Source of the DNA: a virus
IMG/VR virus record: IMGVR_UViG_3300017758_000062
Coordinates: 1 to 32,566 of that record
Direction: 5' to 3' (one strand)
Length of the DNA stretch: 32,566 nt
A program made the position numbers and the translations under genes. Below the pieces are notes generated by a model. It did no database searches. It had not been told where the DNA came from and saw nothing but the letters and a program-made list of their open reading frames with translations. Below, piece by piece: positions 7,321 to 28,147 of this stretch; within the stretch, counting starts at the first letter, position 1, and the number at the start of each line of letters is the position of its first letter.

Positions 7321-8233
7321 TAAACACTCCCATTATTTGTTGTATTTTTTCATCATTCAAATCGAGTATCGCACTCAGATATTCTGCTAGTTCTTCTTCG
7401 ATTGTTAAGTCTTTGAGATTTAACGTAGCTTCTGTACTTCGTTTTACTACTTTCTTATCAAGCAGCTCTGAGTTCTTTATTGAAGCTAAGTCAGCAACAT
7501 CTCCTTCGATTTCATAGATTGTATGATGAAACTCTGTTTGTACCATATCCTCTGGATCGGTAACTGTTTTTCTCAGTAATTGTGGTAGGTCAAATTCATG
7601 CCATGTCCAGTCACTACCATCAATCATAAGATATCCTGTCTTGACTATATCTCTGTGAAAAGATGTAGTCATAGGGGAGCCTGGATAGATAATGTTTCTT
7701 TGTGTATTTGTATGACTATGTAGGTCTCCTGCGTACACAAGAGGAAAAGCATTAAATCTATCTAGGTCTACCTCAGGTGTTACATGAGGGGGTATTTCAC
7801 CCCTTACATGTGTATATAAAGGTTTGTCAGTATTGCATTTTTCTATAGAGCCTTTTCTATGTAAGTCTACATAGGGTAGAATAGTTCCCCATTCATACTC
7901 TGTAGTTTTATCTACAATCTCAACAAGAGGATTTACATCAGATGTGGCTCTTTGTAGATTAGAAAAGAAAGTCTTGTACTTTTTAGTAGCTTCATGATTA
8001 CCATCATAAATAATAGTAGGTATTGAAACATCTTTAATAAAATCAAAGTAAAGTGTAAGCTCGTCCATTGAGGGCACTCTATCAAATAGGTCTCCGCCTA
8101 TGATATGCAAGTCAACTTCTTTTTCTAATTCATGTACTGTTTCAAAAAATAAGTCATATCTTGCGCAGGCCCAAGCCATTGGAACATTCTTTTGTCCTAA
8201 TTTTATATGCCAATCTGCTGTAAATAAAATCAT
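7289..8233 (-). CDS. Recombination endonuclease subunit, SbcD/Mre11-like nuclease (T4 gp47 type)
   Basis: Metallophosphoesterase nuclease that works with SbcC. From the chosen start: ADWH D7/H9, GGDLFDR D48, DGNHEAT N79/H80, then YAGDLHSHT, the ordered metal-binding motifs of calcineurin-like phosphoesterases. A longer frame starts at 8266, but ATG 8233 overlaps the peroxiredoxin stop as ATGA and gives the family's usual start just before the first metal motif, so 314 aa is preferred. It is translationally coupled to peroxiredoxin upstream and SbcC downstream. Confidence 0.93.
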   Translation of the reverse strand: MILFTADWHIKLGQKNVPMAWACARYDLFFETVHELEKEVDLHIIGGDLFDRVPSMDELTLYFDFIKDVSIPTIIYDGNHEATKKYKTFFSNLQRATSDVNPLVEIVDKTTEYEWGTILPYVDLHRKGSIEKCNTDKPLYTHVRGEIPPHVTPEVDLDRFNAFPLVYAGDLHSHTNTQRNIIYPGSPMTTSFHRDIVKTGYLMIDGSDWTWHEFDLPQLLRKTVTDPEDMVQTEFHHTIYEIEGDVADLASIKNSELLDKKVVKRSTEATLNLKDLTIEEELAEYLSAILDLNDEKIQQIMGVFSDYSKNATLG

Positions 8234-8733
8234 GCTACGAAATCCTCGCCTGGTTGCCATGCGCAACCTGTGAGACCACCAGCTTTTAAAGCTTGTAGTG
8301 TTCTTAGCACTTCTTTTGCATCTCTTCCCGTATCTAATGCATTTACTGATACGTGTTGGATAAAGCCTTCATCATCAACTATAAAAGTTGCTCTGTAAGG
8401 TACTCCTTCATCGGGGTCAACTATCCCTAATCTATTAGCGAGAGATAGTCCACTATCTGCTGCCAAGTTGTGTTTGATATTGCCTATGAGATCATTTTGT
8501 TCTTTCCACGCAAGTTTACAGTATTCATTGTCGCCACTGATACCTGTAACTATTGCTTCTCCTACCAAACAATCCATGTCTGCTATTTCAGTTGGACAGA
8601 TGAAAGTAAAATCTTTTGGGTAAAAGTAAACTACATTCCATTCTCTGTCATCAAAGTATGCTTCTACAATATCATTGTTAGAACTTACTGCAGGCAGTGA
8701 AAAGTAAGGAAATTCTTCTCCTATTCCAATCAT
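8230..8733 (-). CDS. 2-Cys peroxiredoxin (AhpC/TSA family)
   Basis: Thiol peroxidase of 167 aa that would reduce hydrogen peroxide or alkyl hydroperoxides. The peroxidatic site is FTFICPTE with T43 and C46; R114 (YRATF) fits the conserved arginine; C157 (GLTGCAW) near the C-terminus fits the resolving cysteine. It lies between SSB-like and SbcD genes with AAGGAG before its ATG and ATGA coupling to SbcD, so it is made together with recombination proteins. Peroxiredoxins are uncommon in phages. The reductant is unknown; host thioredoxin or AhpF, or the phage glutaredoxin, are candidates. Confidence 0.93.
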   Translation of the reverse strand: MIGIGEEFPYFSLPAVSSNNDIVEAYFDDREWNVVYFYPKDFTFICPTEIADMDCLVGEAIVTGISGDNEYCKLAWKEQNDLIGNIKHNLAADSGLSLANRLGIVDPDEGVPYRATFIVDDEGFIQHVSVNALDTGRDAKEVLRTLQALKAGGLTGCAWQPGEDFVA

Positions 8734-11114: not shown

Positions 11115-11273
11115 TTACCAATGATGGATTATTCCACCAATAATAAAGAAGCATGTTATAAAATTTACAAGTACAATTATACTACGAAGAATCGCTATGC
11201 GATCGGCTTCCTTTGCATCATCAGATGCTTTTTCTCCTAGGCTTTTTGCCCATATTTTCCAGAGTGTTCTCAT
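11115..11273 (-). CDS. Small single-pass membrane protein, 52 aa
   Basis: MRTLWKIWAK start, a charged stretch (GEKASDDAKEADR), then one hydrophobic helix (about residues 28-48, ILRSIIVLVNFITCFFIIGG) ending HHW. The ATG overlaps the SET gene stop (ATGA) and the frame ends one base before the helicase ATG, so it fits the operon exactly. I recall similar short proteins in marine phages, without known function. Confidence 0.75.
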   Translation of the reverse strand: MRTLWKIWAKSLGEKASDDAKEADRIAILRSIIVLVNFITCFFIIGGIIHHW

Positions 11274-11602
11274 TGTATAATATCATCATAGCCTACAGTA
11301 TAATAAACCACTAGCTCTTCACCAGCTTTTATAGGTTTAATTGTGTATAGCTCCCGTTGATCTCCATGGTGATAGTGTACATTAGTATTTATGAAACAGT
11401 TTGGAACTTCTGAATGGTTTATAAAACCTCCTAAGGGTGTTCTTATCCATTCATGCCTATTACTTTCCCAAACATGCGACACTCCCAAGAATGTGCCTGC
11501 TTTTAAATCTTCTTCAGCAAAGAGTCCAAGTCCGTTTACGGAACTAGGTTTTACTCTAAGGTATTCTGGTAAAGGTCTGTAATGGTGTGGTCCAAACTTC
11601 AT
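11270..11602 (-). CDS. Small SET-domain protein (putative protein-lysine methyltransferase)
   Basis: 110 aa with the hallmarks of a compact SET fold: GLGLFAEEDLKAGT (24-37), GGFINHSEVPNC (58-69, the NHSxxPNC knot motif) and IKAGEELVVYYT (91-102). SET enzymes transfer methyl groups from SAM to lysine side chains; the target here is unknown, and host ribosomal or chromatin-like proteins are possible. There is no long post-SET region, so it is close to a minimal SET domain. ATGA-coupled to the small membrane protein. Confidence 0.8.
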   Translation of the reverse strand: MKFGPHHYRPLPEYLRVKPSSVNGLGLFAEEDLKAGTFLGVSHVWESNRHEWIRTPLGGFINHSEVPNCFINTNVHYHHGDQRELYTIKPIKAGEELVVYYTVGYDDIIQ

Positions 11603-17711: not shown

Positions 17712-18437
17712 TTAGCTAGAAGCTTTTTCTTTTCTTGCAGCACCATCGTAATCAGCACAAGTTAGACCTCTTCTGGTCAACATTGTTTTAACGCCTCTTA
17801 CAGTTTTGCCAATTTCGTCAGCTATAGCTTCGACAGTCATGTCGCCTAAGTCACTGACTTCCGCTAAAGGATCAGCTTTGCTAGAACCTTTAGTTTCTTT
17901 TTGCTTAGGTATAGCGCCTATGTCGCCACTTCTAAGTAAGCTAAGAGCCTTTCCTCTGATAGAGTTAACAGTTTTGCCAAGTGCGTCTGCGATTTCTTCA
18001 ACAAATGCACCATCGTTTACCATGCTAGTAAAGGTTGCTTCTTCTTCGGGAGAGTAAGTTCTAACTGATTCAGGTTTCTCAGCTGGTTTTACATGAGAAG
18101 TTAATTCCATTGAGAGGATCTTCCCTTGTATTGATTTAGCAGAAAATGCTCCGCTCTCGAAAGAGTTAGCAATATCTGCATATGTGTATGCACCAGAGTT
18201 ATCTGTTACAAATGCTTGTAGTGTGGCTTCTTGTTCTTCAGAAAAAGTTCTGTTTGATACTGAAGAAGCGAGTTCTACGTCGTGTCCCATTTTTCTTAAT
18301 TTGCTAGAAACTGATCTTGTTGAAGTTTCTAACTCATCAGCAGCGTTAGCTACTGTGGCTTGTGAGATAGGTGACTCACTGCCTACGAAGTCAACTAATT
18401 GTTGAGTTCTTTCATCTGTCCATTTTGGTAATGCCAT
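17712..18437 (-). CDS. DNA-binding protein with four SANT/HTH-like repeats
   Basis: 241 aa containing four related helical units: KWTDERTQQL to KLRKMG (5-51), FSEEQEATLQ to ILSM (65-110), YSPEEEATFT to SLLRSG (128-171) and DMTVEAIADEIGKTVRGVKTMLTRRG (in 199-224). Each ends in a recognition-helix-like S/R-rich segment (TSTRSVSSKLRKMG, GKTVNSIRGKALS, GKTVRGVKTML). The linker near 175-190 is basic and Ser-rich. Strong RBS-sized gap to ligase-C and single-copy position before the helicase suggest a regulator or replication-origin binder; both are inferences. Related repeats occur in genes at 21838, 28962 and 30397. Confidence 0.75.
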   Translation of the reverse strand: MALPKWTDERTQQLVDFVGSESPISQATVANAADELETSTRSVSSKLRKMGHDVELASSVSNRTFSEEQEATLQAFVTDNSGAYTYADIANSFESGAFSAKSIQGKILSMELTSHVKPAEKPESVRTYSPEEEATFTSMVNDGAFVEEIADALGKTVNSIRGKALSLLRSGDIGAIPKQKETKGSSKADPLAEVSDLGDMTVEAIADEIGKTVRGVKTMLTRRGLTCADYDGAARKEKASS

Positions 18438-18439
18438 GA

Positions 18440-19204
18440 TTATTTTCCTATTATTATTTCTTCTAAGTTTGTTATTATTTTAACACCCCTACCTCGGGCT
18501 GTCTGTGTTTTGGCGGATTCGATCCCGCTTTCGTTTACTAAAATTGTTACATCTTTGGTTAAACTGCTTTTCACAAGATAGCCCATTTGTTGTAATACTT
18601 CTGTAGCGGCTGCTTTAGTTTTATAGCTAGTTAGTTTTCCTGATATGCATACGACTCCCATGTCCTTAGCACTATTTTCTGTAGTGATTTTTGCTAGTTG
18701 TTGCCATCTAAATGGTAGTCGGTCATACCCACCAGTGAATTCTTCAATTATCCAATCTAGTAAGTTATTTGTAGCAGCTGGTCCTAAGCCTGCTTTCTCA
18801 CAATTTTCTTCTGTTATCTCTGTAATACTTTGTACTACTGAACAAATCTTTTGAGAAGCGGTTTTACCAATCAACTTTATAGAAAATGCAGGTAGTAAAT
18901 CGACTAAGTCGGTAAGTTTACTATTCTCAATTTCTCTATGGAGTTTTACTGCTAATTTCTCGGAGCCAAGTGCGTCTATCATCATATCTAATGGTAGCTC
19001 ATATAAATCAAAAAAGTTTACTATTTTTAATTTTTCTATAGTGGCTGGGCCGAGTCCCTTAATTTTAAGAGTCTTTGCAAAGTGTTCCAGTTTTCTACTT
19101 GTTTTACCAGAGCAATCTGGATTATAACAAAATAACTGATCTTTCTCCCACACAAGTTCTGTACTACAAGTAGGGCAGGTTGTTGGTGGTGTTATCGTTT
19201 GCAA
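18440..19204 (-). CDS. ligA-C: NAD+-dependent DNA ligase, C-terminal half (zinc finger, HhH, BRCT)
   Basis: 254 aa matching the second half of bacterial LigA: PPTTCPTC opening with zinc ligands C10, C13, C26 and C31, helix-hairpin-helix repeats (IKGLGPATIEKL 48-59; also around 108-120 and 137-150) and a BRCT domain (182-254). It has no adenylation domain; that is in the gene at 20209-21150. The two parts together cover a whole LigA. The start appears to be TTG at 19204 in the transcript from promoter 19232-19260, with only a weak GAGAG upstream. The break falls in the linker between OB fold and zinc finger. Confidence 0.9.
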   Translation of the reverse strand: MQTITPPTTCPTCSTELVWEKDQLFCYNPDCSGKTSRKLEHFAKTLKIKGLGPATIEKLKIVNFFDLYELPLDMMIDALGSEKLAVKLHREIENSKLTDLVDLLPAFSIKLIGKTASQKICSVVQSITEITEENCEKAGLGPAATNNLLDWIIEEFTGGYDRLPFRWQQLAKITTENSAKDMGVVCISGKLTSYKTKAAATEVLQQMGYLVKSSLTKDVTILVNESGIESAKTQTARGRGVKIITNLEEIIIGK

Positions 19205-19231
19205 TGTTTGTCTCTCAATTTCTATTTATAT

Positions 19232-19260
19232 ATTATAACAAAAATGAGTTGCCATGTCAA
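19232..19260 (-). promoter_or_regulatory. Sigma-70 promoter of the ligase-C / helicase / primase unit
   Basis: Minus-strand TTGACA (19260-19255), 17-bp spacer, TATAAT (19237-19232), TGT before the -10. The TGA stop of the GIY-YIG-like gene (19259-19257) is inside the -35 box. Confidence 0.92.
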
Positions 19261-19628
19261 GATTTATTTTTCGGAAAGTCCTGAAGAATAAGCGAATCAA
19301 TTTTGAAACACTCAGTATGACCTCCAAACTTGACTTTTGGTTCATATTTGTCATGTTGGTAAATTTCATGTAGGTATTGTTCTTGAATCCAGACATGATA
19401 AAGAGTATCTGACCAAGTTTTTTGAATACGAATATCGTATCCTTTAAAACCGCCACTACGCTTAATTACATGCCTCCAATCCTTTCCCGAAGCGATCCCT
19501 ACCTTTATACATTCTCTTTCAAATGTCTTTTTATTTACTAGAACAATGCCATATAAGACTCCGTCTTTCTCAGCTTCTTCGGGGTGATTACGAAAATATG
19601 TTTCGTTATATTTGCCTATACTTGGCAC
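19257..19628 (-). CDS. GIY-YIG/T5orf172-like putative nuclease
   Basis: 123 aa. The order of motifs fits small GIY-YIG superfamily proteins: LYGIVLV (24-30) as the first strand, IKVGI (41-45) as the YIG-like strand, R52/R57 in the next helix (DWRHVIKRSGGF), an acidic E84 (IQEQYLHE) and a final KFGGHTECF (99-107). The family includes homing endonucleases and T5orf172-type phage proteins. The gene lies between the two halves of the ligase, which is the usual place for a homing nuclease in a split phage gene. Whether it cuts DNA is not known. Confidence 0.6.
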   Translation of the reverse strand: MPSIGKYNETYFRNHPEEAEKDGVLYGIVLVNKKTFERECIKVGIASGKDWRHVIKRSGGFKGYDIRIQKTWSDTLYHVWIQEQYLHEIYQHDKYEPKVKFGGHTECFKIDSLILQDFPKNKS

Positions 19629-20209
19629 TACTGTTCATCAAACCATGTTAAAACAGCGTCATCCATCCACTCTTGTGGAATAATACCACTATCTTTATGC
19701 TCTTCCCACCATTCAAAATCGTCTGGCAGTTCGTCTATACCTAGTTTTTCACATAATTGCTCTACAAAGTCGTCGCCGTCTGTTTCTTCAAAAGAAGTGT
19801 TGCCCATATCGTCTGACCAAGCAACTCCCACAAAGTTTCTAAACTCATCTTCATAAGTCATTCGTAAATGTGCTTTCATATGCCCAGCTAAATGCCCTAA
19901 CATTTCTATTGGGGGTGACCATGCTGAGTATCCATAAACCTGAGTTTCTTCTACATCTTCAACATTGCACCATTTTGCTCCAACATTTTCACAATACCAA
20001 TCATAGCTATTTTCAAGCCAACTATCGCCATCTTCTAATGACCACTTTTGACCCAGATTTTCCATAAAGGGTTGTTTTTCTAGTTCTATTGCTTCTGTGA
20101 CCTCCCAAGAATTATCTTCCCAAGTGCGAGTATAAGTCTGCATCTTAAATTCTTTAGTAAAATCTACATCTTCGGTTGCTGTTATATAAAATGATACGTG
20201 ATTTGCCAT
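19628..20209 (-). CDS. Api92-like / DUF1281-type acidic protein
   Basis: 193 aa, very acidic and Trp-rich. The segment YDWYCENVGAKWCNVE resembles the W..NWGTKWD motif of Api92-like ferredoxin-fold proteins, followed by a beta strand and WSPPIEML. Start ATG 20209 shares its A with the TAA stop of ligase-N and is preceded by AGGAG, which itself encodes the last residues of ligase-N. It therefore belongs to the segment that separates the ligase halves. Function unknown; some acidic phage proteins mimic DNA, but nothing specific supports that here. Confidence 0.65.
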   Translation of the reverse strand: MANHVSFYITATEDVDFTKEFKMQTYTRTWEDNSWEVTEAIELEKQPFMENLGQKWSLEDGDSWLENSYDWYCENVGAKWCNVEDVEETQVYGYSAWSPPIEMLGHLAGHMKAHLRMTYEDEFRNFVGVAWSDDMGNTSFEETDGDDFVEQLCEKLGIDELPDDFEWWEEHKDSGIIPQEWMDDAVLTWFDEQ

Positions 20210-21150
20210 TATATTCTCCTTACTATACGAGGAATGATTTCTCCACTTCTTATAACTTCTACTTTACAGCCTATCTCTAAGTTTAAAGCTTCTATATGTG
20301 CCATATTATGTAAAGTTGCTCTACTAACAACAGCCCCATCTATTTCAATAGGTTTTAATACTGCTACAGGGGCAACAACACCTGACTTTCCAACGTTCCA
20401 TAGAACATCTACTAGCTCAGTTTCAACTCCTTGTTGTATTGTTTTAAAGGCATATGCGCCTCTAGGGTGGTGTGAAGTATATCCTCGTTTTTCAAACTCT
20501 TCATTATTATTTATTCTGAATACTAATCCGTCGTCAGGATACTCATTCCAATTACTATCTAATACTGTGCAGAAACCAAAAGCTTTTGCCTGTTTTAAGT
20601 CAGCTTCCCAACCCTCATGAATATGAGGTTGGACACCGTAGGCTATAAACTTCAGTTCTCTACTCTTAAATTCGTCAATATCTTTTAGATTTAAAGCACC
20701 AGCAGCATAGTTTCTAGCATTTTTTATTTCTTTTCGTGCTACAACTTCTCCTGTAATTTGATTTATATAAGCGGAACCATGAAACATTTCAGGAACTAAT
20801 GTTCTTAAATGCTCTGTAATGTCCAAGCCTTTTATACCATCACCTCTAGTCAATCCTTGTACAAACTTTCCATTAATATAAAGTAAAGAAACAGCTGCTC
20901 CATCTAATTTAGGAGTAACTAATACTGTTCCTTTGTATTTATTAAAGGGGTCTTTGTTTGTTTCGTTGTCAAATACTTTCTGTAAAGAAAACATTTGAAA
21001 GTGGTGGGCAATTCTATTGTCTTGTTTACTACCAACTTCTTGGTAATTAATAGAACTTGCAAGACTATCAAACTCACTATCACTAATGATAGGTGAGCCT
21101 TTGTAATAGGCATCGCTGGCTTTGTTTAAGAACTCTTTTAAATCTTGCAT
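20209..21150 (-). CDS. ligA-N: NAD+-dependent DNA ligase, N-terminal half (Ia, adenylation, OB)
   Basis: 313 aa. Domain Ia is short but keeps NAD+-binding residues (Y15, Y16, D24, F27-D28 in SPIISDSEFD). Adenylation motif TPKLDGAA with the AMP-accepting K81, TRGDG, VARKE and NARNYAAGAL, DGLVFRI, then YAFKT, and an OB fold (VLWNVGKSGVVAPVAVL to IPRIVRRI). The protein ends exactly where LigA normally enters its zinc finger; the last codons are the ribosome site of the next gene. First gene behind promoter 21181-21209. It can probably self-adenylylate but should need the other half for nick sealing. Confidence 0.92.
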   Translation of the reverse strand: MQDLKEFLNKASDAYYKGSPIISDSEFDSLASSINYQEVGSKQDNRIAHHFQMFSLQKVFDNETNKDPFNKYKGTVLVTPKLDGAAVSLLYINGKFVQGLTRGDGIKGLDITEHLRTLVPEMFHGSAYINQITGEVVARKEIKNARNYAAGALNLKDIDEFKSRELKFIAYGVQPHIHEGWEADLKQAKAFGFCTVLDSNWNEYPDDGLVFRINNNEEFEKRGYTSHHPRGAYAFKTIQQGVETELVDVLWNVGKSGVVAPVAVLKPIEIDGAVVSRATLHNMAHIEALNLEIGCKVEVIRSGEIIPRIVRRI

Positions 21151-21180: not shown

Positions 21181-21209
21181 ATTATAACAAAAATTTAAAT
21201 ACAAGTCAA
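21181..21209 (-). promoter_or_regulatory. Sigma-70 promoter of the ligase-N unit
   Basis: Minus-strand TTGACT (21209-21204), 17-bp spacer, TATAAT (21186-21181), TGT before the -10. The mRNA leader would be about 25 nt with no clear Shine-Dalgarno sequence before ATG 21150. Confidence 0.88.
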
Positions 21210-21218
21210 GAACTAAAT

Positions 21219-21521
21219 TTAGTTTAGGTAAATTTCATCTAAAATATCTTTGAAGTGAGTTTCTAAGGTGTCTTTTACTTCTGCAAGGGACAGTATCTCA
21301 ACTAACCCTTCAAATAACGCCTTTGAGTTTTGGAAATCAAGAGCCATGGCTACGCCGTCCTTACTAGGCTTAAAATCTCCATCAAAGTCTAAGTAGTATT
21401 TTCTAAGATGTAAATACTCTGTTCCTCTGAACTCATTAATTGTTAGTTTCACTTGCTCTGTACCATCAGCATTTTGTGAAATTAATTTTTCATACGCTTC
21501 GGGAGCGTCATATATATTCAT
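21219..21521 (-). CDS. PC4-like single-stranded DNA-binding / transcription cofactor protein
   Basis: 100 aa. Residues 23-61 (VKLTINEFRGTEYLHLRKYYLDFDG, then FKPSKDGVAMAL) follow the PC4/p15 pattern of a curved four-strand sheet: INxFxGxxYLxLRxYY, a G/D turn, and KPSKxGV. Residues 68-100 form a helix as in PC4 dimers. PC4 proteins bind melted DNA; phage T5 has such a protein. It is ATGA-coupled to the 88-aa gene. A role in phage transcription or replication is inferred. Confidence 0.65.
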   Translation of the reverse strand: MNIYDAPEAYEKLISQNADGTEQVKLTINEFRGTEYLHLRKYYLDFDGDFKPSKDGVAMALDFQNSKALFEGLVEILSLAEVKDTLETHFKDILDEIYLN

Positions 21522-21837: not shown

Positions 21838-22278
21838 TTAGTTATTTATTGCGTTGATTACACCTGCGAAGTAAACTGCGGCTTTGCCAGTTAGCTTATC
21901 AATGATGTCAGCGTCAATTTCTTGACCTGCATCAGTTAAAGCACCCTTTAGGGTTTCCTGTGCATCTGCTTTGCTTACTCTAGATGTACCACCACCTGTA
22001 GATGGTGAAGTACTTCTAGCTGCAGGAGATTTTTTCACATAAACGCCAGCTTTTGTAAGAATCATTCTGACTCCATTAGGTGATTCACCTAACTCTTCAG
22101 CTATGTCTTTTACGATTTCCATTGATGTCTCTGGAGTTGCTTCTGCATCTGTGTACATTTCAACTGCCTGAGCTTTGGATTCATCTGTCCATGCCATTCT
22201 TCTTCTCCTTTTTGTACCTCGATAGCCAGGATATGTACCTAGTTTTTCGAGTTGTTGTTGATAAAATCTATCTCCCAT
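21838..22278 (-). CDS. WTDE-type HTH DNA-binding protein
   Basis: 146 aa. A basic N-terminus (GTKRRRRM) leads into AWTDESKAQAVEMY and a helix-turn-helix (IVKDIAEELGESPNGVRMILTKAG, 55-78) like repeats of the 241-aa protein. A Ser/Thr/Gly linker follows, then a helical C-terminal unit (SKADAQETLKGAL to AVYFAGVINAINN) that may dimerise. ATG 22278 lies 8 bp from the -10 box, giving a leader of about 2 nt. A second ATG at 22197 has AAGGAG upstream and could give a shorter form; the basic codons also create that site. Confidence 0.75.
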   Translation of the reverse strand: MGDRFYQQQLEKLGTYPGYRGTKRRRRMAWTDESKAQAVEMYTDAEATPETSMEIVKDIAEELGESPNGVRMILTKAGVYVKKSPAARSTSPSTGGGTSRVSKADAQETLKGALTDAGQEIDADIIDKLTGKAAVYFAGVINAINN

Positions 22279-22286
22279 ATATAAAT

Positions 22287-22315
22287 ATTATACAGAAAAA
22301 TAGACGCCATGTCAA
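22287..22315 (-). promoter_or_regulatory. Sigma-70 promoter, nearly leaderless
   Basis: Minus-strand TTGACA (22315-22310), 17-bp spacer, TATAAT (22292-22287). The ATG of the HTH gene is 8 bp downstream of the -10, so the leader is about 2 nt. Confidence 0.92.
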
Positions 22316-27715: not shown

Positions 27716-28147
27716 TTAGCCAATAAGAATGTCTTTTGGCTTTTCTGCATCAGGTGTATTCACCTGTAAATTGATTACTAATAAACCACTTTTAAACCCT
27801 GCATCTGATACTTCTACCCAGTCACCGAGCGTAAAAATTCTGCTAAAGGTCTTACCGCTTAATCCTTTATGGATGTAGCGTTCCTCATCAGAACCTAGCT
27901 CTTGCTTTTCCTTACCTTCTATGGTAAGTTTATTTTTGTGTTGCTTGATATCAATATTGTCTTTTTTCCAGCCTGGTAGCGCCATCTCGATGCGGTATGC
28001 ATCCTCTCCGATAGCCACTAGGTTGTATCTAGGGTAATTACTAAGAGGCGATGTCTCGGCTCTTCTCGTTAGCTCATTGTGTAAGCGATCAAATCCGACA
28101 AATAATTTGTCGAAATCATTAAAGTTTAATGCTGTTAATCCAGTCAT
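27716..28147 (-). CDS. Small heat shock protein (Hsp20 / alpha-crystallin family, IbpA-like)
   Basis: 143 aa chaperone that holds unfolded proteins. Alpha-crystallin domain about 38-135: YPRYNLVAIGEDAYRIEMALPG, NIDIKQHKNKLTIEGKE, then a YIHKGLSGKTFSRIFTLGDWVEV strand pair and SGLLVINL in place of the GVL motif. Phage Hsp20 proteins are known in T4-like cyanophages and may help virion assembly. It is the first gene of its unit, 28154-28159 AAGGAG being its ribosome site, and its mRNA has a structured leader of about 220 nt. Confidence 0.93.
   Translation of the reverse strand: MTGLTALNFNDFDKLFVGFDRLHNELTRRAETSPLSNYPRYNLVAIGEDAYRIEMALPGWKKDNIDIKQHKNKLTIEGKEKQELGSDEERYIHKGLSGKTFSRIFTLGDWVEVSDAGFKSGLLVINLQVNTPDAEKPKDILIG

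Follow-up and report, generated by a model that had tools for sequence, protein, structure and literature searches.

A T5-type two-subunit NAD+ DNA ligase, with a T5orf172-family gene that behaves as a resident between its subunit genes, in a marine branch of phages

In a viral DNA fragment of 32,566 nucleotides (IMG/VR record IMGVR_UViG_3300017758_000062; "the window" refers to this whole stretch) the two halves of an NAD+ DNA ligase are encoded by separate genes, and the interval between these holds two further genes, one Api92-like and one GIY-YIG-like, as noted in a preliminary description of the sequence. This raises the question whether the ligase gene was split in this phage by a mobile nuclease gene, or whether the split is older, and how the genes in the interval then relate to it.

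The gene for subunit A (ligA; 20209..21150, minus strand) encodes 313 amino acids comprising the adenylation and OB-fold domains (Pfam DNA_ligase_aden, E 6.9e-29; DNA_ligase_OB, E 1.1e-23; PHROG 3359, E 2.4e-105). The gene for subunit B (ligB; 18440..19204, minus strand) has a TTG start and encodes 254 amino acids with a C4 zinc finger, HhH and BRCT domains (PHROG 3498, E 3.7e-53; for the zinc finger and BRCT the Pfam matches are below cut-off only), and its fold matches chain B of PDB entry 9hu3 (E 2.7e-13). The existence of separate PHROGs families for the two halves already suggests that such splits occur commonly. Alignment with Escherichia coli LigA revealed that the pair retains all four zinc cysteines together with K115, D117, G118, R136, E173 and K314; specifically, the KxDG lysine of subunit A, K81, corresponds to K115, and the C4 cysteines of subunit B, which are invariant in 10 subunit B sequences, align with C408/C411/C426/C432. 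The domain matches and this alignment agree that a whole LigA is cut cleanly in two at the OB/zinc-finger linker (E. coli residues about 391-399), such that the preliminary description was correct with respect to the gene coordinates, the break point and the presence of the catalytic and zinc residues. Fused LigA, as in E. coli and large phages (e.g. Pseudomonas phage D6 and Bacillus phage AR9), has the same domains and can be aligned across the junction, but constitutes one polypeptide where the window has two.

A ligase made of two polypeptides had been thought to be a new arrangement. It is of some interest, yet it is already documented in T5-like phages: in phage T5 subunits A and B are annotated (ligA/ligB, T5.116/T5.117, AY543070), with the same split point, domain content, neighbours and a promoter before each gene, and the 2015 genome note on the T5-like phage Stitch names the A and B ligase subunits that it encodes to seal genome nicks (PMC4319617). 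The T5 order ligA/ligB/D5/helicase/primase/polymerase is also that of the window, where ligB is followed by the gene for a D5-like regulator (17712..18437, minus strand), as in T5, and by replication genes, while a gene for a PC4-like ssDNA-binding regulator (21219..21521, minus strand) precedes ligA, as in T5-like phages. The same ligA/ligB arrangement is present in Klebsiella, Vibrio and Providencia T5-like phages. Moreover, a two-chain structure has been deposited, and for each half the best PDB sequence match is a chain of 9hu3/9i5i (9hu3 chain A, E 4.4e-69; chain B, E 1.4e-26). Entry 9hu3, "PR1 phage heterodimeric DNA ligase in complex with 21-mer nicked DNA" (released 2026-01-14), represents the NAD+ ligase of Providencia phage vB_PreS_PR1 (PR1), a T5-like member of the Demerecviridae, and its chains are homologous to the window halves over nearly their full length. 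The difference lies between the genes: in T5 they are 202 nt apart, with two promoters annotated in the spacer, and in PR1 a terminator and a promoter are annotated there; neither phage has a gene in this place, whereas the window has two. Among phage records 1201 match subunit A, a number that includes the fused LigA of large phages, and 916 match subunit B. The split ligase is a known arrangement, normal in the large T5-like family; the window shows it in a marine branch as well, one that is common and uncultured, with the split seen as old and stable.

We are highly confident that the window pair is a T5-like two-subunit NAD+ DNA ligase, which would act as a nick-sealing heterodimer, and that the split is old and inherited; homology, gene order, residues, clade and the absence of fused forms come from the present analysis, and the heterodimer on DNA from the PR1 relative (9hu3). 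By homology with 9hu3, subunit A would bind NAD+ and become adenylated on its lysine, the zinc finger, HhH and BRCT domains of subunit B would close the clamp on nicked DNA, and A and B together would form one heterodimer with a clamp equivalent to that of LigA, sealing nicks during phage replication. We infer that the window phage has this ligase activity.

The preliminary description had pointed to a homing nuclease as the origin of the split: as with the nrdA gene of phage Aeh1, an uninterrupted ligA of this lineage would have been broken in two by the insertion of a GIY-YIG homing endonuclease. The interval does hold a GIY-YIG-like gene, some of whose relatives are phage endonucleases, but the ligase is also split where that gene is missing, within the branch as well as beyond it: in T5, PR1 and nine marine loci (L014, L082, L084, L086-L088, L090, L091 and L093) ligA and ligB are about 60-220 nt apart with no gene in between, so the GIY-YIG-like gene is not the cause of the split here. 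Klebsiella VAC35 likewise has a split ligase without a GIY-YIG-like gene between its parts. Nor did a check of the relatives for an uninterrupted ligase yield any: all 213 distinct pairs are split (0/213 fused), with a stop between the genes in every pair, and none offers an uninterrupted junction as a target site for the nuclease. The ligA-ligB gap, measured between the ends of sequence matches, ranges from 71 to 2119 nt among the 114 distinct pairs of a first survey and is near 4 kb in three further loci. Furthermore, among the nearest relatives searched, the GIY-YIG-like gene is neither duplicated nor found elsewhere, follows the ligase tree and shows no signs of mobility. Because gene-free split forms exist and the fused form was not found, we reject homing as the cause in this lineage, where we regard it as highly improbable; an ancient homing split at the T5-like origin, with later loss of the nuclease, may have taken place. 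In the ligase tree, a branch with 100/99 support separates the nine split ligases included from seven fused LigA, these seven being the only fused sequences and some of them on long branches. We conclude that the split is an old trait shared by inheritance throughout the family, and that it did not arise by insertion in the window phage.

A separate ligase that might replace the split one was not seen: ATP-type ligase domains are absent from the window, T5, D386, Dax and three long marine contigs, each of which has one NAD+ adenylation gene, the search in the window covering this 32.6 kb genome fragment. We give practically no probability to a misassembled or artificially frameshifted locus, or to a ligase pseudogene in decay, as nothing was found in favour of these and the split recurs in isolates; the same split and the same residues are found in many independent contigs and isolates, and dN/dS is well below 1.

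As the preliminary description stated, each half has its own promoter, TTGACT-17-TATAAT upstream of ligA (21181..21209, minus strand) and TTGACA-17-TATAAT upstream of ligB (19232..19260, minus strand). Both rank in the top three of the promoter-like sites in the region scanned, where the total of such sites is no higher than expected by chance. A perfect TTGACA-17-TATAAT is also present at 22287-22315 (minus strand), before a DNA-binding protein gene (21838-22278). In compact loci (e.g. L084 and L086) the ligA stop is directly followed by TTCTTGACA, with a -10 box 17 nt on and then ligB, and in loci with the GIY-YIG-like gene a similar promoter motif follows the stop of that gene, which is therefore situated after the ligA stop and ahead of the promoter of ligB. 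Genes accumulate in this interval ahead of the ligB promoter; in the marine branch the GIY-YIG-like gene became fixed there, and Api92-like genes have been gained and lost.

The Api92-like gene (19628..20209, minus strand; 193 amino acids; DUF1281_C, 24.7 bits vs cut-off 22.8) is closely joined to ligA. Its ATG overlaps the ligA stop (TAATG) and AAGGAG is present in the last ligA codons, in keeping with the ribosome site that had been placed there. It occurs in 24 of 96 loci, for which the ligase tree requires 12 changes; its sequence diverges by 14% in phages that are nearly identical otherwise, and it has relatives also on contigs without a ligase gene in the available stretch. The Api92-like gene is variable cargo that comes and goes.

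The only less usual point of the locus is the other gene, the conserved nuclease-like gene between the halves in the marine branch (19257-19628, minus strand; 123 amino acids). Its product matches PHROG 681 "endonuclease" (E 2.7e-11), and four divergent relatives pass the Pfam cut-off for T5orf172, the window's own member giving no T5orf172 match by itself. The predicted model (pLDDT 87.6) has the order beta-beta-alpha-beta-alpha and matches viral proteins named T5 Orf172 in a viral structure library; a fold search against PDB gave no match below E 0.2. On the basis of the relatives above cut-off and the fold, the product is a T5orf172-family protein with a GIY-YIG/T5orf172 domain. It shares the Pfam matches of divergent members and the fold order with T5orf172 (PF10544)/MUG113 proteins of the GIY-YIG clan, but it is a stand-alone protein fixed at one locus. 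Invariant residues of the inserted family include Y26, K42, G44, R57, E83 and E106, which, judging from the family, are probably catalytic. Neither inserted gene was matched by PADLOC.

With respect to its distribution, the T5orf172 gene occurs in 82 of the 96 loci, with 3 label changes on the ligase tree vs 13 in shuffles. Among 211 distinct relatives, 167 are between ligA and ligB, 42 have one flank and 1 has both flanks off the contig, and one has ligA upstream and no ligB within 2.7 kb of downstream sequence; none was found outside the ligA-ligB interval and the gene is single copy, the relatives being the nearest 80 per query, so that distant paralogues elsewhere could escape. Homing-type mobility, i.e. 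presence at other loci and patchy presence at the cut site, was not seen in these 211 copies. In two Vibrio phages a 38% relative lies close to a gene for a tail fibre. The median dN/dS is 0.100 for the T5orf172 gene, 0.145 for ligA and 0.162 for ligB, which indicates stronger purifying selection on the T5orf172 gene. The gene behaves as a resident and not as a mobile element. In three loci (L078, L079 and L085) about 3.2 kb is inserted between the T5orf172 gene and ligB, and in L079 the insert encodes a 2OG-Fe(II) oxygenase and a carbamoyltransferase (both above the Pfam cut-off) together with an unknown protein.

The simplest reading is that the gene resides in a place where insertion is tolerated and has a role of its own that is not connected with the ligase. 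A more interesting one, which would add to the two-subunit ligase reading, is that the marine-branch gene is a dedicated partner of the ligase, e.g. a site-specific programmed nickase, a third subunit or a regulator, with the interval as a nick-and-seal module. Its confinement to the ligA-ligB interval and its low dN/dS are in line with this, as are the programmed nicks in T5-like genomes (PMC3517423), which are thought to be sealed by the ligase (PMC4319617). Against this, the ligA-ligB interval of T5 and of other T5-like phages lacks such a gene, the nicking activity of T5 maps to the late-region genes sciA and sciB (PMC3517423), compact marine loci without the gene still have a split ligase, and in some loci the gene is separated from ligB by the 3.2 kb mentioned above. 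We regard both the partnership and the nick-and-seal module as rather unlikely; if true, a tie between the T5orf172 gene and ligation would be relevant to the unsolved question of what the programmed nicks of T5-like genomes are for. A literature search, judged by titles and abstract openings, yielded no paper that links T5orf172 with the split ligase.

Some further observations concern the surrounding sequence. Compared with locus L006, the window is 81% identical in ligA and 88% in ligB, and 97-98% in the PC4-like, T5orf172 and D5 neighbours, i.e. the divergence is concentrated in the ligase genes. The replication gene cluster of the window includes a gene for an AhpC/TSA peroxiredoxin (8230-8733, minus strand), and a gene for a small SET-domain protein (11270-11602, minus strand; Pfam SET, 45 bits vs cut-off 22.4), which is unusual for a phage, adjoins the helicase-like gene. 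Finally, a gene for an HSP20 small heat-shock protein is present at 27716-28147 (minus strand).
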